A stretch of DNA of 20,144 nucleotides from a virus: positions 1 through 20,144 of IMG/VR virus record IMGVR_UViG_3300046457_000011. The stretch is one strand, 5' to 3'. Within the stretch, counting starts at the first letter, position 1, and each line of letters begins with the position of its first letter. Positions 1 to 19,205 of this stretch are shown piece after piece. The translations under genes were made by a program, and so were the position numbers. The notes under the pieces are model-generated. The model was not told the origin of the DNA and did no database searches. It worked only from the letters and a program-made list of their open reading frames with translations.

Positions 1-361
1 CCGCAAAGTGACGCTTGTACGGGTCCATGTCGCGGGACACGTAGCCCACCCGCTCGCCCCTGATCATGCGCTCGAACATGTCGTGCGCCTCAGAGCCGAT
101 GTCGGCCCGTTCCTTGGTGTACCGGCGGGATGCTCCGCTGACGTACTGGACAGCGGACGCGCGCCCTCCCCGGTCGAGCATCTGCTGTACGAAATCGATC
201 GAGTCAACAGCGAGTTCCGCAGCCATCTTCGCGGCCCAGAACGTGAGGAACGGCTTAGGGAGCATGCCGACGATGCTCGTTACGCCGGGCAGCTTCACAT
301 CGGGGTTGTCGGTGTTGAAGTAGAAGCGGGGGCCCTTGCCCTCAGTCGTCTTGATAGCCAT
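1..361 (-). CDS. Cas4/RecB-like PD-(D/E)XK exonuclease, N-terminal part (runs off left edge)
   Basis: The minus-strand frame opens with ATG at 361 and stays open to the window edge, giving about 120 residues beginning MAIKTTEGKGPRFYF. The N-terminal pattern, PGVTSIVGMLPKPFLTFWAAK followed about 55 residues later by GSEAHDMFERM, is typical of the phage Cas4/RecB-like nuclease family (PDDEXK superfamily). These enzymes process DNA ends in phage replication or recombination. The metal-binding D/E-x-K residues would lie in the missing C-terminal part, so catalysis cannot be checked here. An AAAGGG ribosome site lies 5-10 nt before the ATG. A 31-bp element shared with the dNMP kinase gene sits 22 nt upstream and probably drives expression. 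The family call is from recognised motifs; activity is inferred. Confidence 0.72.
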   Translation of the reverse strand, partial: MAIKTTEGKGPRFYFNTDNPDVKLPGVTSIVGMLPKPFLTFWAAKMAAELAVDSIDFVQQMLDRGGRASAVQYVSGASRRYTKERADIGSEAHDMFERMIRGERVGYVSRDMDPYKRHFA

Positions 362-383: not shown

Positions 384-414
384 GCTTACGACTTGGGCTA
401 GCGATTCGGTTACC
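384..414 (-). promoter_or_regulatory. 31-bp bipartite upstream element, copy 1 (putative promoter)
   Basis: On the plus strand this reads GCTTACG, seven unrelated bases, then CTAGCGATTCGGTTACC. The second copy at 3184-3214 has the same two blocks, the same 7-nt gap and one mismatch (23 of 24 block positions). Both copies end exactly 22 nt before a minus-strand ATG. Read on the minus strand, GTAACC and GTAAGC are separated by 18 nt, a plausible -35/-10 layout that does not match the housekeeping consensus. A start site about 15 nt before the ATG would leave room for the AAAGGG ribosome site. The conservation and spacing are seen; promoter function is inferred. Confidence 0.5.
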
Positions 415-460
415 CGTGTACTAGTGCAGGTGGTGCATGCAATCCCGGTATGCCCTAGGG

Positions 461-510
461 AGTTCCTTAGAGATATGTGATTTGGGTACACCAAATACAC
501 TTCTACACAA
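461..510. promoter_or_regulatory. AT-rich island with small palindrome in the gene-free stretch
   Basis: The stretch from 415 to 594 has no convincing gene. Within it, 461-510 is clearly more AT-rich than its surroundings and holds a perfect 6-bp inverted repeat, ATTTGG / CCAAAT, at 480-485 and 491-496 with a 5-nt centre. Flanking GTG and ACAC extend the symmetry imperfectly. Because it precedes the exonuclease gene it could hold an operator or promoter, but I could not find a convincing -35/-10 pair. It does not resemble the ACCTACT repeat family. Confidence 0.25.
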
Positions 511-594
511 ACAGCAGGTCAGGGGCTTGTTCGCTGTCGCTTGCCGCTGTCCCAACTACACGCGGGGCTCAGCGGCCGTCTGCGGGCATGAGAA

Positions 595-627
595 AGCCCC
601 ACCCGACCACAGGGGCCAGATGGGGCT
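595..627 (-). terminator. Rho-independent-like terminator after the 63-aa gene
   Basis: A perfect 7-bp stem, AGCCCCA (595-601) with TGGGGCT (621-627), encloses a loop that can itself pair CCC with GGG. On the minus strand the hairpin is followed by TTTC. It lies 21 nt downstream of the stop codon of the 63-aa gene, so it probably ends the transcript containing the 428-, 86- and 63-aa genes. The exonuclease gene to its left would then need its own promoter. Confidence 0.55.
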
Positions 628-648
628 AAGAGGGGCTCAGGCGGGCGC

Positions 649-840
649 TCAGGTACCTTGCTGGTGCTTCAACTCCCATGCGCGGGTCTCGTGCTTGCAG
701 CCGGAACAGGTGGGGTCACCGGACCCGCCGACCGGGAACGTGGGGCGCTGCCCGCAGTAGGTGTCTCCGCCAGACTTGGGCGCCGCGTGAATGAAACCAT
801 CGTCGGCTGTCTCAAACAGCATCCAGGGACGATCCGTCAT
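649..840 (-). CDS. Small putative zinc-binding protein (63 aa)
   Basis: This is a 63-residue protein beginning MTDRPWMLFETADDG. It carries an ordered set of possible zinc ligands: His18, Cys29 (followed by Gly30), Cys45 and Cys48 in a Cys-x2-Cys pair, with His50 nearby. I recognise this H...CG...CxxC layout from small actinobacterial and actinophage zinc-ribbon-like proteins, but not a named family. The start is supported by a GGGAGAG ribosome site 8 nt upstream, overlapping the end of the 86-aa gene, so the two are probably translated together. A terminator hairpin follows its stop. The N-terminus of the 428-aa protein shows a similar ligand order. Function is unknown; a DNA- or protein-binding role is only inference. 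Confidence 0.6.
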   Translation of the reverse strand: MTDRPWMLFETADDGFIHAAPKSGGDTYCGQRPTFPVGGSGDPTCSGCKHETRAWELKHQQGT

Positions 841-842
841 GA

Positions 843-1103
843 CTAGCTCTCTCCCAGCTTGTTGAGTTCATCTTTGAACGCTGACACCACGGACGGGGGC
901 ACCACCCGATAGGACATCCCCTTAAAGTCCTCCGGGGTTCCGTCCGCCAGACGCCGGGCCGTAGCTTCCCGGTCGCCCTTCCACCCGTGCATGCCCAGGA
1001 GCAACAGCAGATGTGCCGCTGCATCCTCGGCCGTCGGCAACTCGCGATGCCCGATCACTACGCCGCTCTGTAGGCTCACCACTCGCGCTGTGTACGCGTC
1101 CAC
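843..1103 (-). CDS. Hypothetical protein (86 aa)
   Basis: This 86-residue protein starts with GTG (VDAYTARVV...), preceded by a TAGGAG ribosome site 8-9 nt upstream. I do not recognise a family. It is soluble-looking, with no membrane segment or signal peptide; a helical middle (residues 25-55, Ala/Leu-rich) is followed by a short beta-like segment (SYRVVPP) and a C-terminal helix. It ends 2 nt before the 63-aa gene, and its upstream neighbour is a strong hairpin only 27 nt before the start. That leaves almost no room for a separate promoter, so expression probably depends on read-through from the 428-aa gene. Confidence 0.55.
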   Translation of the reverse strand: MDAYTARVVSLQSGVVIGHRELPTAEDAAAHLLLLLGMHGWKGDREATARRLADGTPEDFKGMSYRVVPPSVVSAFKDELNKLGES

Positions 1104-1130
1104 GTCTCTAGTCTCCTAGTCGTGCAGAAA

Positions 1131-1157
1131 GGGCCCCCAGTGGTCAACTGGGGGCCC
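1131..1157 (-). terminator. Strong GC-rich hairpin terminator/attenuator after the 428-aa gene
   Basis: GGGCCCCCAGT (1131-1141) and ACTGGGGGCCC (1147-1157) form a perfect 11-bp stem with a 5-nt loop. On the minus strand it is followed by TTTCTGC, a short U run. It begins 11 nt past the stop of the 428-aa gene. Only 27 nt separate it from the start of the next gene, so it may act as a partial terminator that sets the ratio of the 428-aa protein to the two small proteins. Confidence 0.65.
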
Positions 1158-1168
1158 GTACGGGGTTC

Positions 1169-2455
1169 CTACAGCCCGGCCTTAAGGGTGGCCAGGTCAG
1201 CGATCATGGCGTCAATCTGTGCCTTGACGTGCTTGCGGGTGTCGGTGTCGTCGTCCGCCACCTTCTTAAGCGCCTTGACCGCGCGCTCAACGTTGGTCTC
1301 GGCCTTAGCGAAGAACGCGCCGATCTGCATGTCGAGCGTAACCGGCTCGCTACCCTCCGTGTCCGACTCGCCCTCGTCGTCGCCGTCCGTGTCCGCGTCG
1401 TCACTCTTCCGCGACTTTTCCAGTTCGTAGCGGCTCACCAGGGCCACGCCGTAGTACTCCGCCACGGCCTCGGAGACGCTCTTGCCCTCCCCCGCATCCT
1501 TGGTGATCAGCTCGAACCGCTGAGCCTCGCCCGGGTTCTCGTCGAGCTCGCGCAGGTACTCAGCGCGGACCGTCGGCATAGCGTTCTGCACACTCTTCTG
1601 AAGCTTCTTGAGGATCTTCTCCCCGTCTTCACGGGTGAGGTTCTCGTCCCCGCCAGCCCGGAACAGCTCCCCGGCCTGCGTGATGATGTCGCTACTGGCG
1701 CTCTTGGCACCCTGAGACGATGCCTTGATGTCGGGCACGCCCGCCTTATCCGTCATGCTGACGCGGATCTCAAGCAGCACGCGGGCGATCTCCGTTGCCA
1801 CGTTGCCCAGCTTGACGTGCATGCGGGTGCCGTCCGCAAATAGCTTGGCACCCTTGGTGACCAGCTCCGGGACACCCTTGACGCTGTGGTAGTCCTCGGT
1901 GGACAGCTTGACCTCAGCGGCCTTGACCACCTTGGGCTCCGGCTTCTCAGCGACCGTGGCCGCAGCCTTGAAAGCTGCACGCGCATTCTTCTTTTCGCTG
2001 GTCCAAGTCTCGCCGTTAGGCGCCTTACCACGCGCCGGAAGCGAGCTGATCAGCTTCTCAGTCTCGGTGCTCAGCTCGCCCAGCCCCTCGACGTTCTCGG
2101 CCTCCGCCAGGCTCGCCGCCCGCTCGATGTTCGCCGCGATCTGCTCAAGCGTTGCGCTGTGGTCTGCGGTGGCGGTCTGCTTCGCTGCCATCTCGGAACT
2201 CCCCTTGTTCGCGGCCCCCCGGGCGGTGGCCTTGAGGCGTGCCACGATACCGGCGGCGTCGACCTTGGTCAAGTCGGAATCGCCGATCTTGTCTGCTTCC
2301 TCGCAGACCACGCGGCACAGGGTGCAGAGACGTTCATCGGCGACGGAGTCCTCAAGGACAGCATGGGCAAGCTGCGGGCCACAGACAGCCACCCCCGGCT
2401 CGGCAGGCTTGACGATGTGGATCAGGTTCTTGTTACGGCCGTAAATCTTGTGCAT
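1169..2455 (-). CDS. Unrecognised 428-aa protein with Cys-rich N-terminus and acidic linker
   Basis: I do not recognise this protein. From ATG 2455 it has 428 residues. The N-terminus holds His13, Cys25-Gly, Cys44-x2-Cys47 and Cys51, a likely zinc site. Residues 55-330 are mostly charged, helical-looking sequence. Residues 350-370 form an Asp/Glu/Gly-rich acidic linker, followed by a 58-residue C-terminal helix pair. A longer frame reaches 2530, but ATG 2455 has a GAGGGGG ribosome site 6 nt before it. A second in-frame ATG at 2191 also has a strong site (AAGGGGAG, 7 nt spacing), which would give a 340-aa form without the Cys module. The gene is bounded by terminators on both sides and has its own inverted repeat and candidate promoter upstream, so it looks like a separately controlled unit. 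A DNA-binding or regulatory role is possible but unproven. Confidence 0.7.
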   Translation of the reverse strand: MHKIYGRNKNLIHIVKPAEPGVAVCGPQLAHAVLEDSVADERLCTLCRVVCEEADKIGDSDLTKVDAAGIVARLKATARGAANKGSSEMAAKQTATADHSATLEQIAANIERAASLAEAENVEGLGELSTETEKLISSLPARGKAPNGETWTSEKKNARAAFKAAATVAEKPEPKVVKAAEVKLSTEDYHSVKGVPELVTKGAKLFADGTRMHVKLGNVATEIARVLLEIRVSMTDKAGVPDIKASSQGAKSASSDIITQAGELFRAGGDENLTREDGEKILKKLQKSVQNAMPTVRAEYLRELDENPGEAQRFELITKDAGEGKSVSEAVAEYYGVALVSRYELEKSRKSDDADTDGDDEGESDTEGSEPVTLDMQIGAFFAKAETNVERAVKALKKVADDDTDTRKHVKAQIDAMIADLATLKAGL

Positions 2456-2495
2456 CGGGATCCCCCTCGTTCGCTGCGTTGTTCTGACACCACGA

Positions 2496-2525
2496 ACACT
2501 AGACATGCGGAGTGCCCCCGCACAA
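2496..2525 (-). promoter_or_regulatory. Candidate housekeeping-type promoter for the 428-aa gene
   Basis: On the minus strand TTGTGC (2525-2520) and TAGTGT (2501-2496) are separated by 18 nt. This resembles the Streptomyces vegetative pattern TTGACn / TAGRRT, with mismatches in each box. It lies downstream of a terminator and upstream of the GAGGGGG-ATG start, leaving a leader of roughly 35 nt. The 20-bp inverted repeat at 2529-2548 abuts the -35 box at 3 nt, as a repressor or activator site would. No other boxes in the 157-nt gap looked better. Confidence 0.35.
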
Positions 2526-2528
2526 CCC

Positions 2529-2548
2529 ACCTACTGAAAAGAGTAGGT
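2529..2548. repeat. 20-bp inverted repeat, copy A (variant centre)
   Basis: The sequence is ACCTACTGAAAAGAGTAGGT: 7-bp arms ACCTACT/AGTAGGT around a 6-nt centre. It differs from the other copies by one base in the centre (GAAAAG instead of GAAATG). It lies 73 nt upstream of the start of the 428-aa gene and next to a candidate -35 box. An operator site is the simplest reading. Confidence 0.7.
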
Positions 2549-2564
2549 CCCCGGAACGCAGAAA

Positions 2565-2604
2565 ACCCCCCTTGACCTGCGCAGATGCACAAGCCAAGAG
2601 GGGT
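2565..2604 (-). terminator. Terminator after the dNMP kinase gene
   Basis: ACCCCCCTTG (2565-2574) pairs with CAAGAGGGGT (2595-2604), a 10-bp stem with one mismatch on the plus strand that becomes a G-U pair in the minus-strand RNA. The minus strand has TTTTC directly after the stem, and an AAAA run lies on the other side, so it could also work in the opposite direction. It starts 8 nt beyond the dNMP kinase stop codon. Confidence 0.65.
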
Positions 2605-2612
2605 GAAAATTT

Positions 2613-3161
2613 CTAGCGGGAGGTCAGCGCATCGGCGCGCGAGTGGAGTTCAGCGAGGGATCCGCCGTTGTAGATCAGGGCATCGGGCACGTAGTTGTCG
2701 AGCGCCGTTTCGCTGTCATGCGCTGACGCACCACCAGGAAGGGGACCTGCGTCCGGCCGGACGATCCGCACGATCTTGAACCCGCGCACACGCAGGGCCT
2801 CGGCCTCATTGGGGTACCGGACATCGGAGACAACGACCGGCGACCAAATGCCCGCGATCTCGTCCAGTGCCGCACTGACCCAGAATCCGGGGTCAAGCTC
2901 GCGGATCGTCTGCCCCGTGTGCTGCAAGAGACGCCGCACTTCCGGATAGTGATCCTTGGCGTAGTCCCACCCGACGTCAGCGATAAGGGACTCAAGACGC
3001 ACTGTGATGCCGGGTCCGGTGGGCACGTACGGGTTCATGTCCAGTAGTGCCCGCTTGAGGGGGTCAGCGAATGCCACCCGGGTATAGCCCTGGGCGACAA
3101 GCCGGGCCGCAACGGTGTCTTTGCCGCTACGTGCCCGGCCGATCAACGCAATGTCCGCCAT
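2613..3161 (-). CDS. Deoxynucleoside monophosphate kinase
   Basis: This 182-aa protein phosphorylates dNMPs to dNDPs, supplying precursors for phage DNA synthesis. The P-loop is clear at residues 8-16 (GRARSGKDT, with Lys14), directly after the first beta strand. FADPLK (about residues 31-36) and VVVSDVRYPNEAEALR, a Walker-B-like strand and base/phosphate contact region, match the phage dNMP kinase family (T4 gp1-like); the length is slightly shorter than T4 gp1. ATG 3161 has a GGAGG ribosome site 7 nt upstream. The 31-bp upstream element ends 22 nt before the start and a terminator follows the stop, so the gene appears to be a single-gene unit controlled apart from the lysis genes to its right. 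Substrate specificity cannot be read from the sequence. Confidence 0.85.
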   Translation of the reverse strand: MADIALIGRARSGKDTVAARLVAQGYTRVAFADPLKRALLDMNPYVPTGPGITVRLESLIADVGWDYAKDHYPEVRRLLQHTGQTIRELDPGFWVSAALDEIAGIWSPVVVSDVRYPNEAEALRVRGFKIVRIVRPDAGPLPGGASAHDSETALDNYVPDALIYNGGSLAELHSRADALTSR

Positions 3162-3183
3162 GGGGAAACCTCCGCTAGATGGG

Positions 3184-3214
3184 GCTTACGCGGCCGTCTA
3201 GCGAGTCGGTTACC
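3184..3214 (-). promoter_or_regulatory. 31-bp bipartite upstream element, copy 2 (putative promoter)
   Basis: The plus strand reads GCTTACG, a 7-nt unrelated gap, then CTAGCGAGTCGGTTACC. It matches the copy at 384-414 with one mismatch in the shared blocks and lies at exactly the same distance (22 nt) from the downstream ATG. It touches the last base of the stop codon of the 62-aa membrane protein gene. A promoter here would start a new transcript at the border between the late lysis genes and the DNA-metabolism genes. Confidence 0.5.
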
Positions 3215-4493: not shown

Positions 4494-4538
4494 GCCCCGC
4501 CGGGCACCTACTCATTTCAGTAGGTCGCCCGACGGGGC
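4494..4538 (-). other. Long stem-loop carrying the repeat at its tip, before the endolysin gene
   Basis: GCCCCG (4494-4499) pairs with CGGGGC (4533-4538), CGGGC (4501-4505) with GCCCG (4527-4531), and ACCTACT (4506-4512) with AGTAGGT (4519-4525). There is one C-A mismatch and one bulged C, for 18 base pairs in all. No U run follows on either strand, so it is not a standard intrinsic terminator. It lies between the tail spike stop and the endolysin ribosome site; mRNA processing, stability or partial termination are possible roles. Confidence 0.6.
4506..4525. repeat. 20-bp inverted repeat, copy B
   Basis: On the minus strand this reads ACCTACTGAAATGAGTAGGT, identical to copy C on the plus strand. 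It is the apex of the longer stem-loop and lies 32 nt upstream of the endolysin start codon. Confidence 0.75.
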
Positions 4539-6187: not shown

Positions 6188-9100
6188 CTAAAGTGAGGCG
6201 ATAGCGGGGCGCGAAAGCGATACCGACTCACCGGCCGAATGGCCCTTAGTGACGCCGTTCATCGCCCGCGTGACGCTGAATCGCTGAGCATTGTTGACCT
6301 GAAAATTGTCGAAACTCGCCGTCACCGGGAGTGTCTGAGTGGTCCCGTTGCCCACCAGCGAACGGACGCCGACCGACCCAACTGCCGTTAGATCAGTGTC
6401 AGTTGCGACGATCTGCCACGCGTCCGGTTCCTTCGTGCCTCGCTGCCAGCACTTAGCGCTGATAGTCGAGCCGATGACCGACAGACGCAGGGTGTAGTAC
6501 GTGCCAACCACATAGTTGGACAGCGTGGCCGTGGCCCCTAGCTGCGTCTCGGCACCGTTGCGCTTTCGCAGGGTGAGCGTGATTGTCTGCCCGACGTGGG
6601 ACACCTGCGCCCGCACCATGTACATGTGCGTGGTGTCCGTGTAACGCGCCATGACAAACGCGTAGTTGGGCGTGGTAACGGCCGTCTTATCGAGCGCCCA
6701 ATCCGCCTGCACATCCACATCAGCGCTCGGTGAAGGGACGTACGTGTACCGCAGGACGTTCGCGGAGTTCATGACGTGCTGTCCGACAGTGCCATTAACG
6801 GCGTAGTCAGCAGCGACACCACCCGTGAACGCCCATGCCTGCCCCGTGTCCGCCGTGCCCCAGCCACTAGCGACCGTGCGCGTGAGCGAGTCACTTACCG
6901 CGAGCCCGTCCGTGGTTACTGCCTTAGGCGCCCACACGTACACGGGCTGCGCCGGAGGGGTCGAGCCGATACGGGGACGCACACGGCCACGGGAGGCAAG
7001 CGCGGGCGACGCTAGGACCGACTCAAGGTACGTCCACTGACCGGCCGGTACCGGGTAGCCAGTACCCAGACCACCGGTAGAGATGAACGTTCCTGCCGAG
7101 TTGTAGAAATGGATAGTCGGCTGTACGTCCGGCAGAGCCACCGGCGAGTAAACCCACATACCGACTCGCACGGACTTACCCGGGATGACAGTGCCCACGG
7201 CGCTGATAGTCCCGACTGCACCCACAACAGCAGACGTGCCATTCGGCGTGATCGCCAGCGAGGCAACGGCCCGAGGATGGACTACCGCAGTAGACCGAGC
7301 AATCGTGGAATTCTCGACGCTCCAACCGCTGATATCCGTTTCGAAGTACGGGTTAGCCGTGGTGACCAGGCCACCCACAGCGTCCACCCGCATGCGCTCC
7401 CCCGCCACATCAATATCAAACGGCGTTTCCTGCGGGGCTTCCGTCCACTTAGGTCCGACAGTCGTCTGAGTGATCAGGGTCGTGTCAGCGGTACCAGCGG
7501 CCTGCGCAACGATCGTTCCGTCCGTGTCAGCCTTAATGGTGTGCGTCGGGTTGTCTGCCTGCGCCACGTTCCAGGGACCGCCCGGCGAACAGTTCAGCGT
7601 GACTTCCCACCGGTACGGCTCAAGCACTTCCGAGTAGCCCTCAACAATCAGGTCTACATCCTCGTGCGAGAGCCACGGCGGTAGGTCCGTAAGCCGAATC
7701 AAGTCCCCCTCGCGCAGACGCAGTACGCCCGGGATAAGGGACTCCGCGCCCGGCTTGTGAAGCATCAGCGTCACGGACGGGTAGCGCGCCCCGTCGTAAG
7801 TCCCCAGGTGCAGCAACCAGTTGGCCATAGGCTCAGGCTGCGTGTCATCGCTGAGGGACAGCGTCACTTCCTCGTCGTACCTGCCGATACCCAGGGGCGG
7901 AGCCTGAACAGACAGCGTGCCGTCCGCCAGGAACGCTCTACCGGCCGAACCCCCCTCGCGGGAAACCGTGATGTCATTTCGCACGGCGCTGTCGTCGTCG
8001 ACCGGATCCAAGTCAGCCTGTAGGCCAGCCTCGTTGTAGGGCAGTGTCAGGACGGGATCCTGCGTGTACATCGACGACCGGTCACGGAACACCAGGCCCG
8101 TACGGTCGCGCGATTCGAGGAACATTCCGCCGTCTGCGTCGCTCGCAGCCTGTAGCAACTCCACCAGCTTGTCAGGCTTTTGCGGGCCTACGCGCGCGGG
8201 AGTCAGGCGCCCGGGTACGCGCGATATGGGAACTTGCTCTTCCTGCCCGAGACGCAGCACACGAGTCCACGCACTCTCGCCGCTGAACGCTCTATCCGAT
8301 CCGTCTAGCAGCGTGGAGTTGGAGACAGGCAGCACCGTGAGGTGACCAATGGCCCAACCCTCGTACCCTGCGCCCCAGTTGGCCGTTACGGCACTCAGGC
8401 GCCCGGCCGTACCCGCGAGCGTCTCTGTGATGATTCCGCGACTACCGCCGACATCCTGCCAACCAATCTGCCAGGTGACCGTGCCCGCATCCTCACGGAC
8501 CCAAAACCGTAGACGGTTCCAGCCATGGAAGGTGTCAGCGCCGATGGCAATGGGCTTTTCCACGATCATGTTCGATCCGCCGTCATAGCCGCGAACCCGG
8601 GCGTGCTGATCCATCATGACGATTGCCCAGCGACGCACCGTGCCATTCGGCGACGAGAACGAAATGAACTCCGGACCCGGCTCTACATACGTCGGCGCCT
8701 TATCGTCAGCGTTGTAGACGAATTCAACTTGCCATTCGCCGCTAGGCATTGACGCCGGAATCGGGGCCGACAGAGTGCCACCGGCTTTGATCTTCGGTAG
8801 CGGATTCGATGACACCAGGTCGGACGCCGACGCCCAATCGACGTTAGCCATTGCCGCTGAGTCCACGCCGGGTATCGGCGAGTAGGCCCGTGTCGAGTTG
8901 CCCGCATCCTCCATCGGCCAGTAGGCCACGGGGTTGCCGGTAGGGATCCGTCGCCGCAGCGTCGAGTCAAGTGCCTTTAGCCCCTGGCCCATGCGCCGCA
9001 GAATGCCCGACGCCTCAAGCGGAACGAATACATCGGACTCGTCGGGGGTCCACTTAGCTGGCCACGTCGAGACTTCCCCAACGAACCTGTCTTCACGGTT

Positions 9101-12943: not shown

Positions 12944-12963
12944 ACCTACTGAAATGAGTAGGT
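12944..12963. repeat. 20-bp inverted repeat, copy C
   Basis: The plus strand reads ACCTACTGAAATGAGTAGGT and the flanking C and G extend the arms to 8 bp. It fills most of the 46-nt gap between the tail terminator stop and the major tail protein start, ending 1 nt from the former stop codon. There is no U run, so it is not a typical terminator. Confidence 0.75.
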
Positions 12964-17757: not shown

Positions 17758-19205
17758 CACGTACTCATTTCAGTAGGTGCCTGCGGGGCGTGCGTCATCA
17801 GCGCAGTAGCTGCCGCGATGGGATCTAGCTGGGCCTCCCGCTCCCGCATCTTGAGCATGTCGACGATCTCAGTCGGGGTTAGCCCGTACTTGAGCGCGAT
17901 CCACTCGAAGGGGAATCCGATCTGCTTGAGCTTGAGCAGAGCATCGGCGAGCTGGGAATGGCTGCGCGATTCGGCATCGGCCCAGAGAACGCGACCACCA
18001 GCGATAGCGTCTGCCTTAGCGTCATTGCCCTGCGCAAGCGCAACCAGGCGGAACATTTCGCGTAGTGCCTGCCCAAACCAAATCTGCTTTTCCTCGACCC
18101 GCTTAACCAGGCCGGTTTCCGCAGCGAGTAGTGCATCGCCACTAATGTTCGTCATCTTGCCGGAAAGGTAGTGCTGGGGCGTGCGCGTCTGCGCGGCAAT
18201 GTGGCCCACGGCTACCTCAATGATGCTGCTGTACGCCTCAAGGTTTGCCGCTGTCCACTCGGTAACCTTGACGTCGTCACCGGTGAAGAACATCACTCGG
18301 TCAACGGCAAAGCGCTCAAGGTCGACCGGGCGCGAACCAACGATCTGCCCCGCCGAATCCAGAATCGGGACTTCCGGCACTTCGGCGCCGAGGACGATTC
18401 GCTGCGGGAACGACGCATAGTCAGCGGCCGTGAACAACTGGGCCCACAGGAGGTTTACCGCATCCTGCATCGCGACCACGCCGGACACATCCGATATGGG
18501 ATCCTCGGCGAGCATGGGCCGGTTGGGCAGTTCCACCATCGGGACAACGCCCATGGGGTTCGGCTGCGGGTTAGGCTCGCCGTCTACGTCGAGTATGTCC
18601 CACAGCTTGAACTCTTCATCGACCGCCTTCATCTGCGGCGTCTTGCCGTCCAGTGGGCTAATGGTCGCTTGCCGGAACTTCCAAACCTCATCCGGTAGGT
18701 ACAGGAACGCGTAAGTCTCGTTCCCGTCCTCCCACAGCTTCAATGCCGCACGCCTGCGCCTGCGACTACCAGGCTCGTACGCAATGATGCAATCCGAGGC
18801 ATCCTCGAAGGTAACTTCCGGCGTTTCCTCGTCCTCCGGGTTGCCCCACACCAGGACGAAGGACCGGCCCGAATTCACAGCGCCAAGGAAACCAAGCTGC
18901 GAATCAGCGTCCAGCCCGTTGCGCTGCCAGACCCGCCAGGATTCATCGTCCGCCTCAGTTGCCCCCACCGGCTGAATGCCATTAACCGTCAGGCGTTCAA
19001 CCGGCGAATCCGACGTGACCTGTACCCAGTTGTCAGAGAAATTCTTGTACCGGTCACCGTGAAACTTGGCGAACTGCTCAGACGCGAACGTGAGTTTCTG
19101 CTCGCCCCGGTAGTAGTCCTTGTTTCGCTGAATGGTCGGACGCCGGTTCATTAGCTCGCTTTCCAGCGAGCCGACTAGCGATAGCGCCTCGTCATAAGTG
19201 GCCAA
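17757..19205 (-). CDS. Portal protein (SPP1 gp6-like)
   Basis: The portal forms the ring at one capsid vertex through which DNA enters and leaves. The sequence (YDEALSLVGSLESELMNRRPTIQRNKDYYRGEQKLTF..., later HYLSGKMTNISGDALLAAETGLVKRVEEKQIWFG) matches the SPP1 gp6-like portal family, and about 482 aa is the normal length. The frame begins at a TTG at 19232 that overlaps the terminase stop. A TTG at 19205 (reading MATYDEALSLVG) has the only good ribosome site, GGAAGAGG, about 6 nt upstream, so I chose it; GTG 19226 cannot be excluded. The last codons (PTEMST) contain the fourth 20-bp repeat. Confidence 0.88.
   Translation of the reverse strand: MATYDEALSLVGSLESELMNRRPTIQRNKDYYRGEQKLTFASEQFAKFHGDRYKNFSDNWVQVTSDSPVERLTVNGIQPVGATEADDESWRVWQRNGLDADSQLGFLGAVNSGRSFVLVWGNPEDEETPEVTFEDASDCIIAYEPGSRRRRRAALKLWEDGNETYAFLYLPDEVWKFRQATISPLDGKTPQMKAVDEEFKLWDILDVDGEPNPQPNPMGVVPMVELPNRPMLAEDPISDVSGVVAMQDAVNLLWAQLFTAADYASFPQRIVLGAEVPEVPILDSAGQIVGSRPVDLERFAVDRVMFFTGDDVKVTEWTAANLEAYSSIIEVAVGHIAAQTRTPQHYLSGKMTNISGDALLAAETGLVKRVEEKQIWFGQALREMFRLVALAQGNDAKADAIAGGRVLWADAESRSHSQLADALLKLKQIGFPFEWIALKYGLTPTEIVDMLKMREREAQLDPIAAATALMTHAPQAPTEMST
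17759..17778. repeat. 20-bp inverted repeat, copy D (imperfect, inside the portal gene end)
   Basis: The minus strand reads ACCTACTGAAATGAGTACGT, one mismatch from copies B and C. Its last base adjoins the overlapping portal stop and MuF start. It encodes the last residues of the portal protein, so its similarity to the intergenic copies could be partly coincidental. Confidence 0.55.

Follow-up and report, generated by a model that had tools for sequence, protein, structure and literature searches.

We assessed a repeated 31-bp element in a 20,144-base virus record (IMGVR_UViG_3300046457_000011, positions 1 to 20,144; the whole stretch is hereafter the window), where it occurs upstream of an exonuclease gene and a dNMP kinase gene. 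We found that the element is most probably a divergent early promoter of the type carried by phiC31 (Lomovskayavirus, a Streptomyces phage), and no new kind of element. From comparative sequence analysis, we put at about 75% the probability that the two copies are lytic (early) promoters of a phiC31-like phage, which would be read by host RNA polymerase with a gp12-type sigma factor. The first-pass annotation of the window was partly supported: its proposal of a promoter or regulator-binding site on the minus strand is well supported, with copies recurring in relatives, nearly all on one strand and mostly directly before genes.

Two copies of the element in the window

A whole-window pattern search for GCTTACG-N7-CTAGCGAKTCGGTTACC matched positions 384–414 and 3184–3214 with 0 mismatches and found no third window site at ≤3 mismatches, in agreement with the two copies, and only two, that had been annotated; 100 dinucleotide shuffles of the window gave 0 matches. 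When gapped pairs were sought without a preset pattern (7 + 17, 11-base exact seed, 200 shuffles), the top pair of the window was again these two copies (23/24 identical). The best shuffled pair reached 22/24, and 25/200 shuffles held a pair of at least 21/24. A chance repeat was rejected by both shuffle tests, and the 23/24 identity exceeds chance, yet is less extreme than the fixed-pattern test implies.

On the gene strand, the copies read GGTAACCGAATCGCTAG-CCCAAGT-CGTAAGC upstream of the exonuclease gene and GGTAACCGACTCGCTAG-ACGGCCG-CGTAAGC upstream of the dNMP kinase gene, both of which had been correctly named. The window gene order of dNMP kinase, repressor-like and exonuclease genes is that of phiC31 genes 52, c and 1. 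One plus-strand block match at 1338 (2 mismatches), within the repressor-like gene and on the opposite strand, was taken as chance.

Anatomy of the element

What the sites share is a block of 16–17 bp, which on the gene strand reads (G)GTAACCGA[C/A]TCGCTAG; the two halves of the bipartite element that had been described are not equal partners. Among 45 block-bearing sites from the window and ten relatives, selected by the block pattern and a loose ribosome-site rule, the CGTAAGC place (positions 24–30) held at most ~0.45 bit per position in a weak purine-rich patch, and positions 17–45 after the block start held ≤0.75 bit. An equal second half was rejected on this poor conservation: in relatives, CGTAAGC amounts to no more than a weak −10-like bias. 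Since positions 17–45 and the CGTAAGC place are little conserved, chance accounts in part for the bipartite appearance of the window copies.

Because the selecting pattern fixes most block positions, the 45-site set is uninformative on the block itself, whose conservation rests instead on copy counts in the ten relatives and on the alignment of 70 gp12 leaders. These leaders, drawn from all subclades and aligned without the ribosome-site rule, share a core GnnnyCGActC.CT with 1.0–1.7 bits at ten positions, the rest being variable.

Both window blocks start 52 nt upstream of the ATG, so that the equal spacing first reported stands, but it is not diagnostic. Among 56 sites in nine relatives, 42 lay at 42–63 nt from the start, 5 lay at 33–41 and 150 nt, and 9 had no start by the rule applied. 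Because the distance varies among these sites, the exact 22-nt gap between element and ATG is a coincidence of the two window sites.

Counterparts in phiC31 and its relatives

The first-pass annotation had suggested a search for further copies in relatives, whose absence would have counted against its reading, and these were found. Ten longer IMG/VR relatives carried 3–13 copies each (≤3 mismatches) vs. 0–2 in each control, counts that include a few coding or chance sites and two contigs (G009 and G013) that are near copies of each other. The blocks lie upstream of genes for a sigma-like protein, a primase, an exonuclease and a kinase, and also upstream of an RNA at the tRNA cluster. G010, the nearest relative of the window, shares 29/31 element letters at gene 1 and has the same operator sequence. 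A wider scan of viral contigs with CTAGCGANTCGGTTAC returned 55 stretches, some plainly chance.

The phiC31 block was not recognisable by literal search, and the relation emerged from gene-by-gene leader alignment; a search for the 31-mer (7 mismatches) in phiC31, phiBT1, Rowa and Shady gave one meaningful match, in Rowa before the exonuclease gene. In phiC31, the leaders of genes 52, 1, 2, 3, 9a, 11, 12, 13, 25 and 46 and a pre-tRNA site carry GTTGCCGACTCCCTT or a variant (≤2 mismatches), and we take these blocks to be the published early promoters. A counterpart is present at the same phiC31 genes, contrary to the earlier view that no described element resembles this one. Across orthologous leaders of 28 relatives, most subclades showed a block at the corresponding position, spelled in a way particular to the subclade: GTAACCGACTCGCTAG in the window and its IMG/VR kin, GTCACCGACTCCCTT in phiBT1, Samora, Shawty, Vash, Euratis and Lilbooboo, GTCGCCGACTCCCTT in TG1, GCATTCGACTCACTC in Rowa, and more distant spellings in Heather, Sebastisaurus, the Shady group and phiSASD1. 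The graded series at gp12, gp9a, gp1 and gp52 indicates that the block is related to that of phiC31 in sequence and in position at orthologous genes, and, as in phiC31-type early promoters, it is repeated in early-gene leaders on the gene strand. An AbbeyMikolon block pattern was unreliable (24 matches vs. 13 and 13 in controls), and Attoomi was left out of the genome-wide block scan.

The window copies thus share with the phiC31 early promoters the same genes, the same place in the leader, a related block (at gene 52, phiC31 GTTGCCGACTCCCTTC compared with GTAACCGACTCGCTAG) and a similar −10-like GTAAGC at gene 52, and differ in block spelling, notably at bases 3–4 and 12–16. A mapped transcription start and activity limited to lytic growth would mark a phiC31-type early promoter. 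The accessible portions of PMC3132441 and PMC5311408 held no statement on early promoters.

A scan of host genomes gave 10 stretches, three from Streptomycetaceae and seven from scattered taxa that look like chance; Streptomyces sp. AC558_RSS880 was the only one with two exact copies. Its two exact window-type blocks (L141) suggest a prophage or remnant, and gp12 was not found in three short Streptomycetaceae loci, the 8 kb of L141 among them.

Two further observations concern particular sites. In several window-type relatives (G011 27747, G020 4070, G010 5822, G006 35584 and others), the primase gene, which is upstream of the polymerase gene, contains a near-block, GTATCCGACTCGCTAG, at its 3′ end; this may reflect coding constraint or an internal promoter. 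In leaders of gp3, which encodes the recombination directionality factor, a strong G/C-rich hairpin comes after the block (L035:5753, L034:272, L041:8070, L037:1130), possibly an attenuator.

Co-variation of the block with gp12

We compared block spelling with the sequence of gp12, using the best 80 of 81 loci minus the truncated L149 and L241 plus L153 and L170 (L167 was unused). The resulting 80 were reduced to 79 by L153, which has no start, to 70 by removal of 9 duplicates, and to 59 by 11 leaders without an alignable block; blocks were sought 37–64 nt upstream of the start. Promoter distance correlated with gp12 distance (r = 0.66) and with that of the neighbouring polymerase C-terminus (r = 0.43). 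In partial Mantel tests, promoter and gp12 remained correlated given the polymerase (r = 0.55, p = 5 × 10−4) and promoter and polymerase given gp12 did not (r = 0.06, p = 0.09), with significance overstated by near-duplicates, the 59 genes including near-identical pairs, and by the Mantel tests themselves. Region 4 given region 2 kept 0.49, compared with 0.23 for region 2 given region 4. The block tracks gp12 beyond polymerase relatedness.

Within gp12, the predicted recognition helix (phiBT1 residues 337–352) outranked the rest of the 259 columns in co-variation (p = 0.0017). Block base 5 agreed with the residue at phiBT1 gp12 position 345 in 58/59 genes (T with Ala, C with others), the exception being L207. 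Base 5 changed 8 times and residue 345 changed 8 times on the polymerase tree, and the two jointly 9 times, compared with an average of 19 for shuffled promoter labels. L213 and L214 are placed among L211 and L212 on this tree, but their block and their helix are both different.

Joint transfer could mimic such co-variation, because gp12 adjoins its own block. As a linkage control, we counted other copies of each genome's own block type (≤2 mismatches) in 34 genomes, some of them fragments. Besides the gp12 copy, there were 192 on the gp12 strand, 2 on the other strand and 3 in the reversed control, sums to which some copies in coding sequence and a terminal duplicate in G020 contribute. The other promoters follow gp12 in type: the own type scored best or tied in 30/34 genomes, and a sister type scored higher in G048, G049, G050 and G057.

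gp12 as the likely reader

We know of no named protein that reads the unusual early promoters of phiC31, and a literature search turned up no named reader, although older subscription papers lie mostly outside its coverage. Several RefSeq records name phiC31 gp12 and its homologues as an RNA polymerase sigma factor, and Sigma70_r2 (Pfam PF04542) was detected in 12/12 members. Profile matches to sigma factors in the PDB covered region 2 (best E = 7 × 10−5). An AlphaFold model of G010 gp12, which has Gln at the equivalent of phiBT1 345, contains helices at 318–325 and 329–351. Among the matches listed for this model, all were sigma or RNA-polymerase entries, both in Foldseek (best E = 6 × 10−3) and in VIA (best Z 12.2, root-mean-square deviation (rmsd) 13.6, 211 residues); whole-length matches to sigma factors have large rmsd, and region 2 alone matched 5h6x_B with Z 11.4 and rmsd 2.5 over 92 residues. 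All ten longer relatives encode gp12, nine of them with a block before it. gp12 appears to be a divergent sigma-70-like protein and the likely reader of the block.

Read on the minus strand, the 16–17 bp block would act as an extended −35-type element, with a weak −10-like element ~7 nt beyond it and a transcription start a few nt further, giving a short leader with a ribosome site; a start ~15 nt before the ATG, as first predicted, is plausible. Recognition of the block would fall to host RNA polymerase together with a sigma-70-like factor encoded by the phage itself, the phiC31 gp12 homologue, through a putative C-terminal helix-turn-helix of this factor, in which the residue equivalent to phiBT1 345 may set part of the specificity. 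gp12 would also activate its own gene, because most gp12 genes examined carry the block.

Several observations weigh against this assignment, besides the overstated significance noted above. The window ends before gp12, and G010 gp12 has no block upstream (7850–8113, L081), though several occur elsewhere in G010. The 11 of 70 gp12 leaders without an alignable block are L193, L199, L200, L204, L243, L244, L245, L246, L248, L249 and L250; in L199, L200 and L204, Ser replaces Ala at the helix place (by eye) and the leader is quite different, which neither helps nor clearly harms the residue 345 rule. Tyr at 345 accompanies GTTGCC and GTCGCC, but also GTAACC in L203, and the four top co-varying columns (131, 112, 134 and 92) lie in or after region 2, outside the helix. 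Region 4 detection is sparse, with Pfam regions 3 and 4 each found in 1/12 members. Confidence in the gp12 model is middling overall (pLDDT, the predicted local distance difference test score, 73.7; predicted template modelling score, pTM, 0.35), rising to a pLDDT of ~86–88 at residues 321–340, and no Foldseek match fell under E = 0.001. The linkage control is weak in 9/34 genomes, those of L213 and L214 among them, because no more than 1–2 further copies were found there.

Alternative readings of the block

The block might instead be bound at −35 by a different, MotA-like activator of the phage, which would bring in host polymerase and a host sigma factor, gp12 being otherwise employed and merely sharing ancestry with the activator. 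Such a protein would suit a block that is long and a −10 part that is weak, unlike a plain −35/−10 promoter, and among phage proteins our test for a reader was limited to gp12, with the neighbouring polymerase as comparison. We nonetheless regard this as unlikely: the co-variation is carried by gp12 and not by the polymerase, helix columns rank high, and gp12 is itself sigma-like.

The position and two-part spacing of the element would be consistent with an ordinary host-sigma promoter, a reading that is very improbable given that blocks vary with gp12. A host factor alone also fits poorly because different blocks occur in TG1 and phiSASD1, phages for which S. avermitilis is the listed host.

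An operator of a phage repressor would be expected in lytic-gene leaders of a phage with a c-type repressor, where the block indeed lies, yet we rejected this highly improbable reading. The element itself lacks a CCTACT...AGTAGG inverted repeat, the window carries that repeat at other sites, and the block is not a clean palindrome. The window has four repeats of the form CCTACTGAAAwGAGTAGG (≤2 mismatches; Table 1), and among window-type relatives the repeats differ (TACGGATATCCGTA, CCAAAATTGG, TACGAATTTTCGTA, CCTACTGAAAAGAGTAGG) while the block is constant. Because relatives with the same block have different repeats, immunity and promoter type vary separately.

Action of the block in RNA, as a leader or translation element, would fit its nearness to start codons (the gp12 search having been confined to 37–64 nt upstream) but is scarcely credible, because the block is also found upstream of non-coding stretches that are followed by tRNA genes.

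Operator-like repeats and other window features

Whereas the promoters would be read by a gp12-type sigma factor, lysogeny would be the part of a c-type repressor together with distinct inverted-repeat operators. The window repeats resemble the inverted-repeat operators of phiC31, named CIRs, in their CCTACT...AGTAGG arms, lie at sites other than the element, and differ at the centre (GAAAAG/GAAATG vs. CACGTG). The phiC31 counterpart is CCTACTCACGTGAGTAGG, whose 12-mers are the commonest in the phiC31 genome. For the repressor-like gene, ATG 2455 looks a likelier start than GTG 2530, to which the open reading frame (ORF) stays open. In a sequence search with the first 8,000 bases, the window was mosaic: 1–3.7 kb matched Rowa, TG1, phiBT1 and phiC31, and 3.2–8 kb best matched phiSASD1 and Dubu.

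Table 1 Features of the window, with positions counted from its first base
Feature	Position	Strand	Remarks
Putative promoter block, copy 1, GGTAACCGAATCGCTAG	398..414	-	before exonuclease (gp1-like) gene
Weak −10-like CGTAAGC, copy 1	384..390	-	putative, from position; in relatives weak bias at most
Putative promoter block, copy 2, GGTAACCGACTCGCTAG	3198..3214	-	before dNMP kinase (gp52-like) gene
Weak −10-like CGTAAGC, copy 2	3184..3190	-	putative, from position; in relatives weak bias at most
Exonuclease gene, phiC31 gp1 homologue, cut by window end	2..361	-	phrog_298; 61% to phiC31 gp1, 118 columns
dNMP kinase gene, phiC31 gp52 homologue	2613..3161	-	phrog_139; 56% to phiC31 gp52, 180 columns
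Repressor-like gene, phiC31 c homologue	1169..2455	-	phrog_19947; 24% to phiC31 c, 387 columns
Operator-like inverted repeat CCTACTGAAAAGAGTAGG	2530..2547		before repressor-like gene
Operator-like inverted repeat, 1 mismatch	4507..4524		before endolysin gene
Operator-like inverted repeat, 1 mismatch	12945..12962		between tail-region genes
Operator-like inverted repeat, 2 mismatches	17760..17777		junction of two structural-region ORFs

A structured RNA candidate near tRNA genes

Many of these phages carry one block followed by a ~120-nt non-coding stretch that leads directly to tRNA genes and closes with a hairpin whose UCUCUCC loop is conserved (alignment A3; L059:40591-40702, L060:40873-40985, L081:18365-18487, L071:15419-15535 and others). 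RNAalifold gave 10 pairs, 7 with two-sided changes. A covariance model built from 18 sequences had 27 matches at E ≤ 1 in 79 sources, 22 of them under 0.001; of the matches, L101 is a training sequence, L082 is a near copy of one, and two are partial. A recognisable block lay within 45 nt upstream in 21/21 matches inspected (by eye). Rfam gave nothing at gathering level besides tRNAs in nine sources, and a tRNA plus one weak chance match at the phiC31 locus. In the phiBT1 record, the candidate overlaps an annotated tRNA-Lys of 233 nt (L060:40907-41139).

Implications for phiC31-family phages

Start-associated sequences of cluster K mycobacteriophages lie at the ribosome site, whereas the block is ~40–60 nt upstream. 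They are likewise short repeats before many phage genes (PMC3203893). A parallel in function would be the phage-encoded sigma factors with their own promoters, such as those of phiEco32 and 7-11 (PMC8948821), in that a sigma-like protein encoded by the phage would turn host polymerase towards the phage's promoters. The protein family context and the hosts differ, and here the promoters appear to include that of the sigma gene itself and are spread across the early region in front of single genes.

We lean towards the view that phiC31-family phages carry a fast-switching private transcription code, in which gp12 and dispersed promoters change specificity together, with about eight joint switches of block type and a few helix residues on the polymerase tree. 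If so, these phages would hold a natural series of possibly orthogonal sigma–promoter pairs with a readable contact code, in which Ala at phiBT1 345 would go with GCnnTCGA, His, Gln, Thr or Asn with GTnACC or CTAACC, and Leu with TTnACC. Such pairs could serve Streptomyces work, and the family would exemplify a joint shift in specificity between a regulator and its dispersed sites. For phiC31, a founding Streptomyces phage, the comparison points to gp12, and within it to a few residues, and yields a prediction of which helix pairs with which block; this, if true, would give the reader of its early promoters a name.

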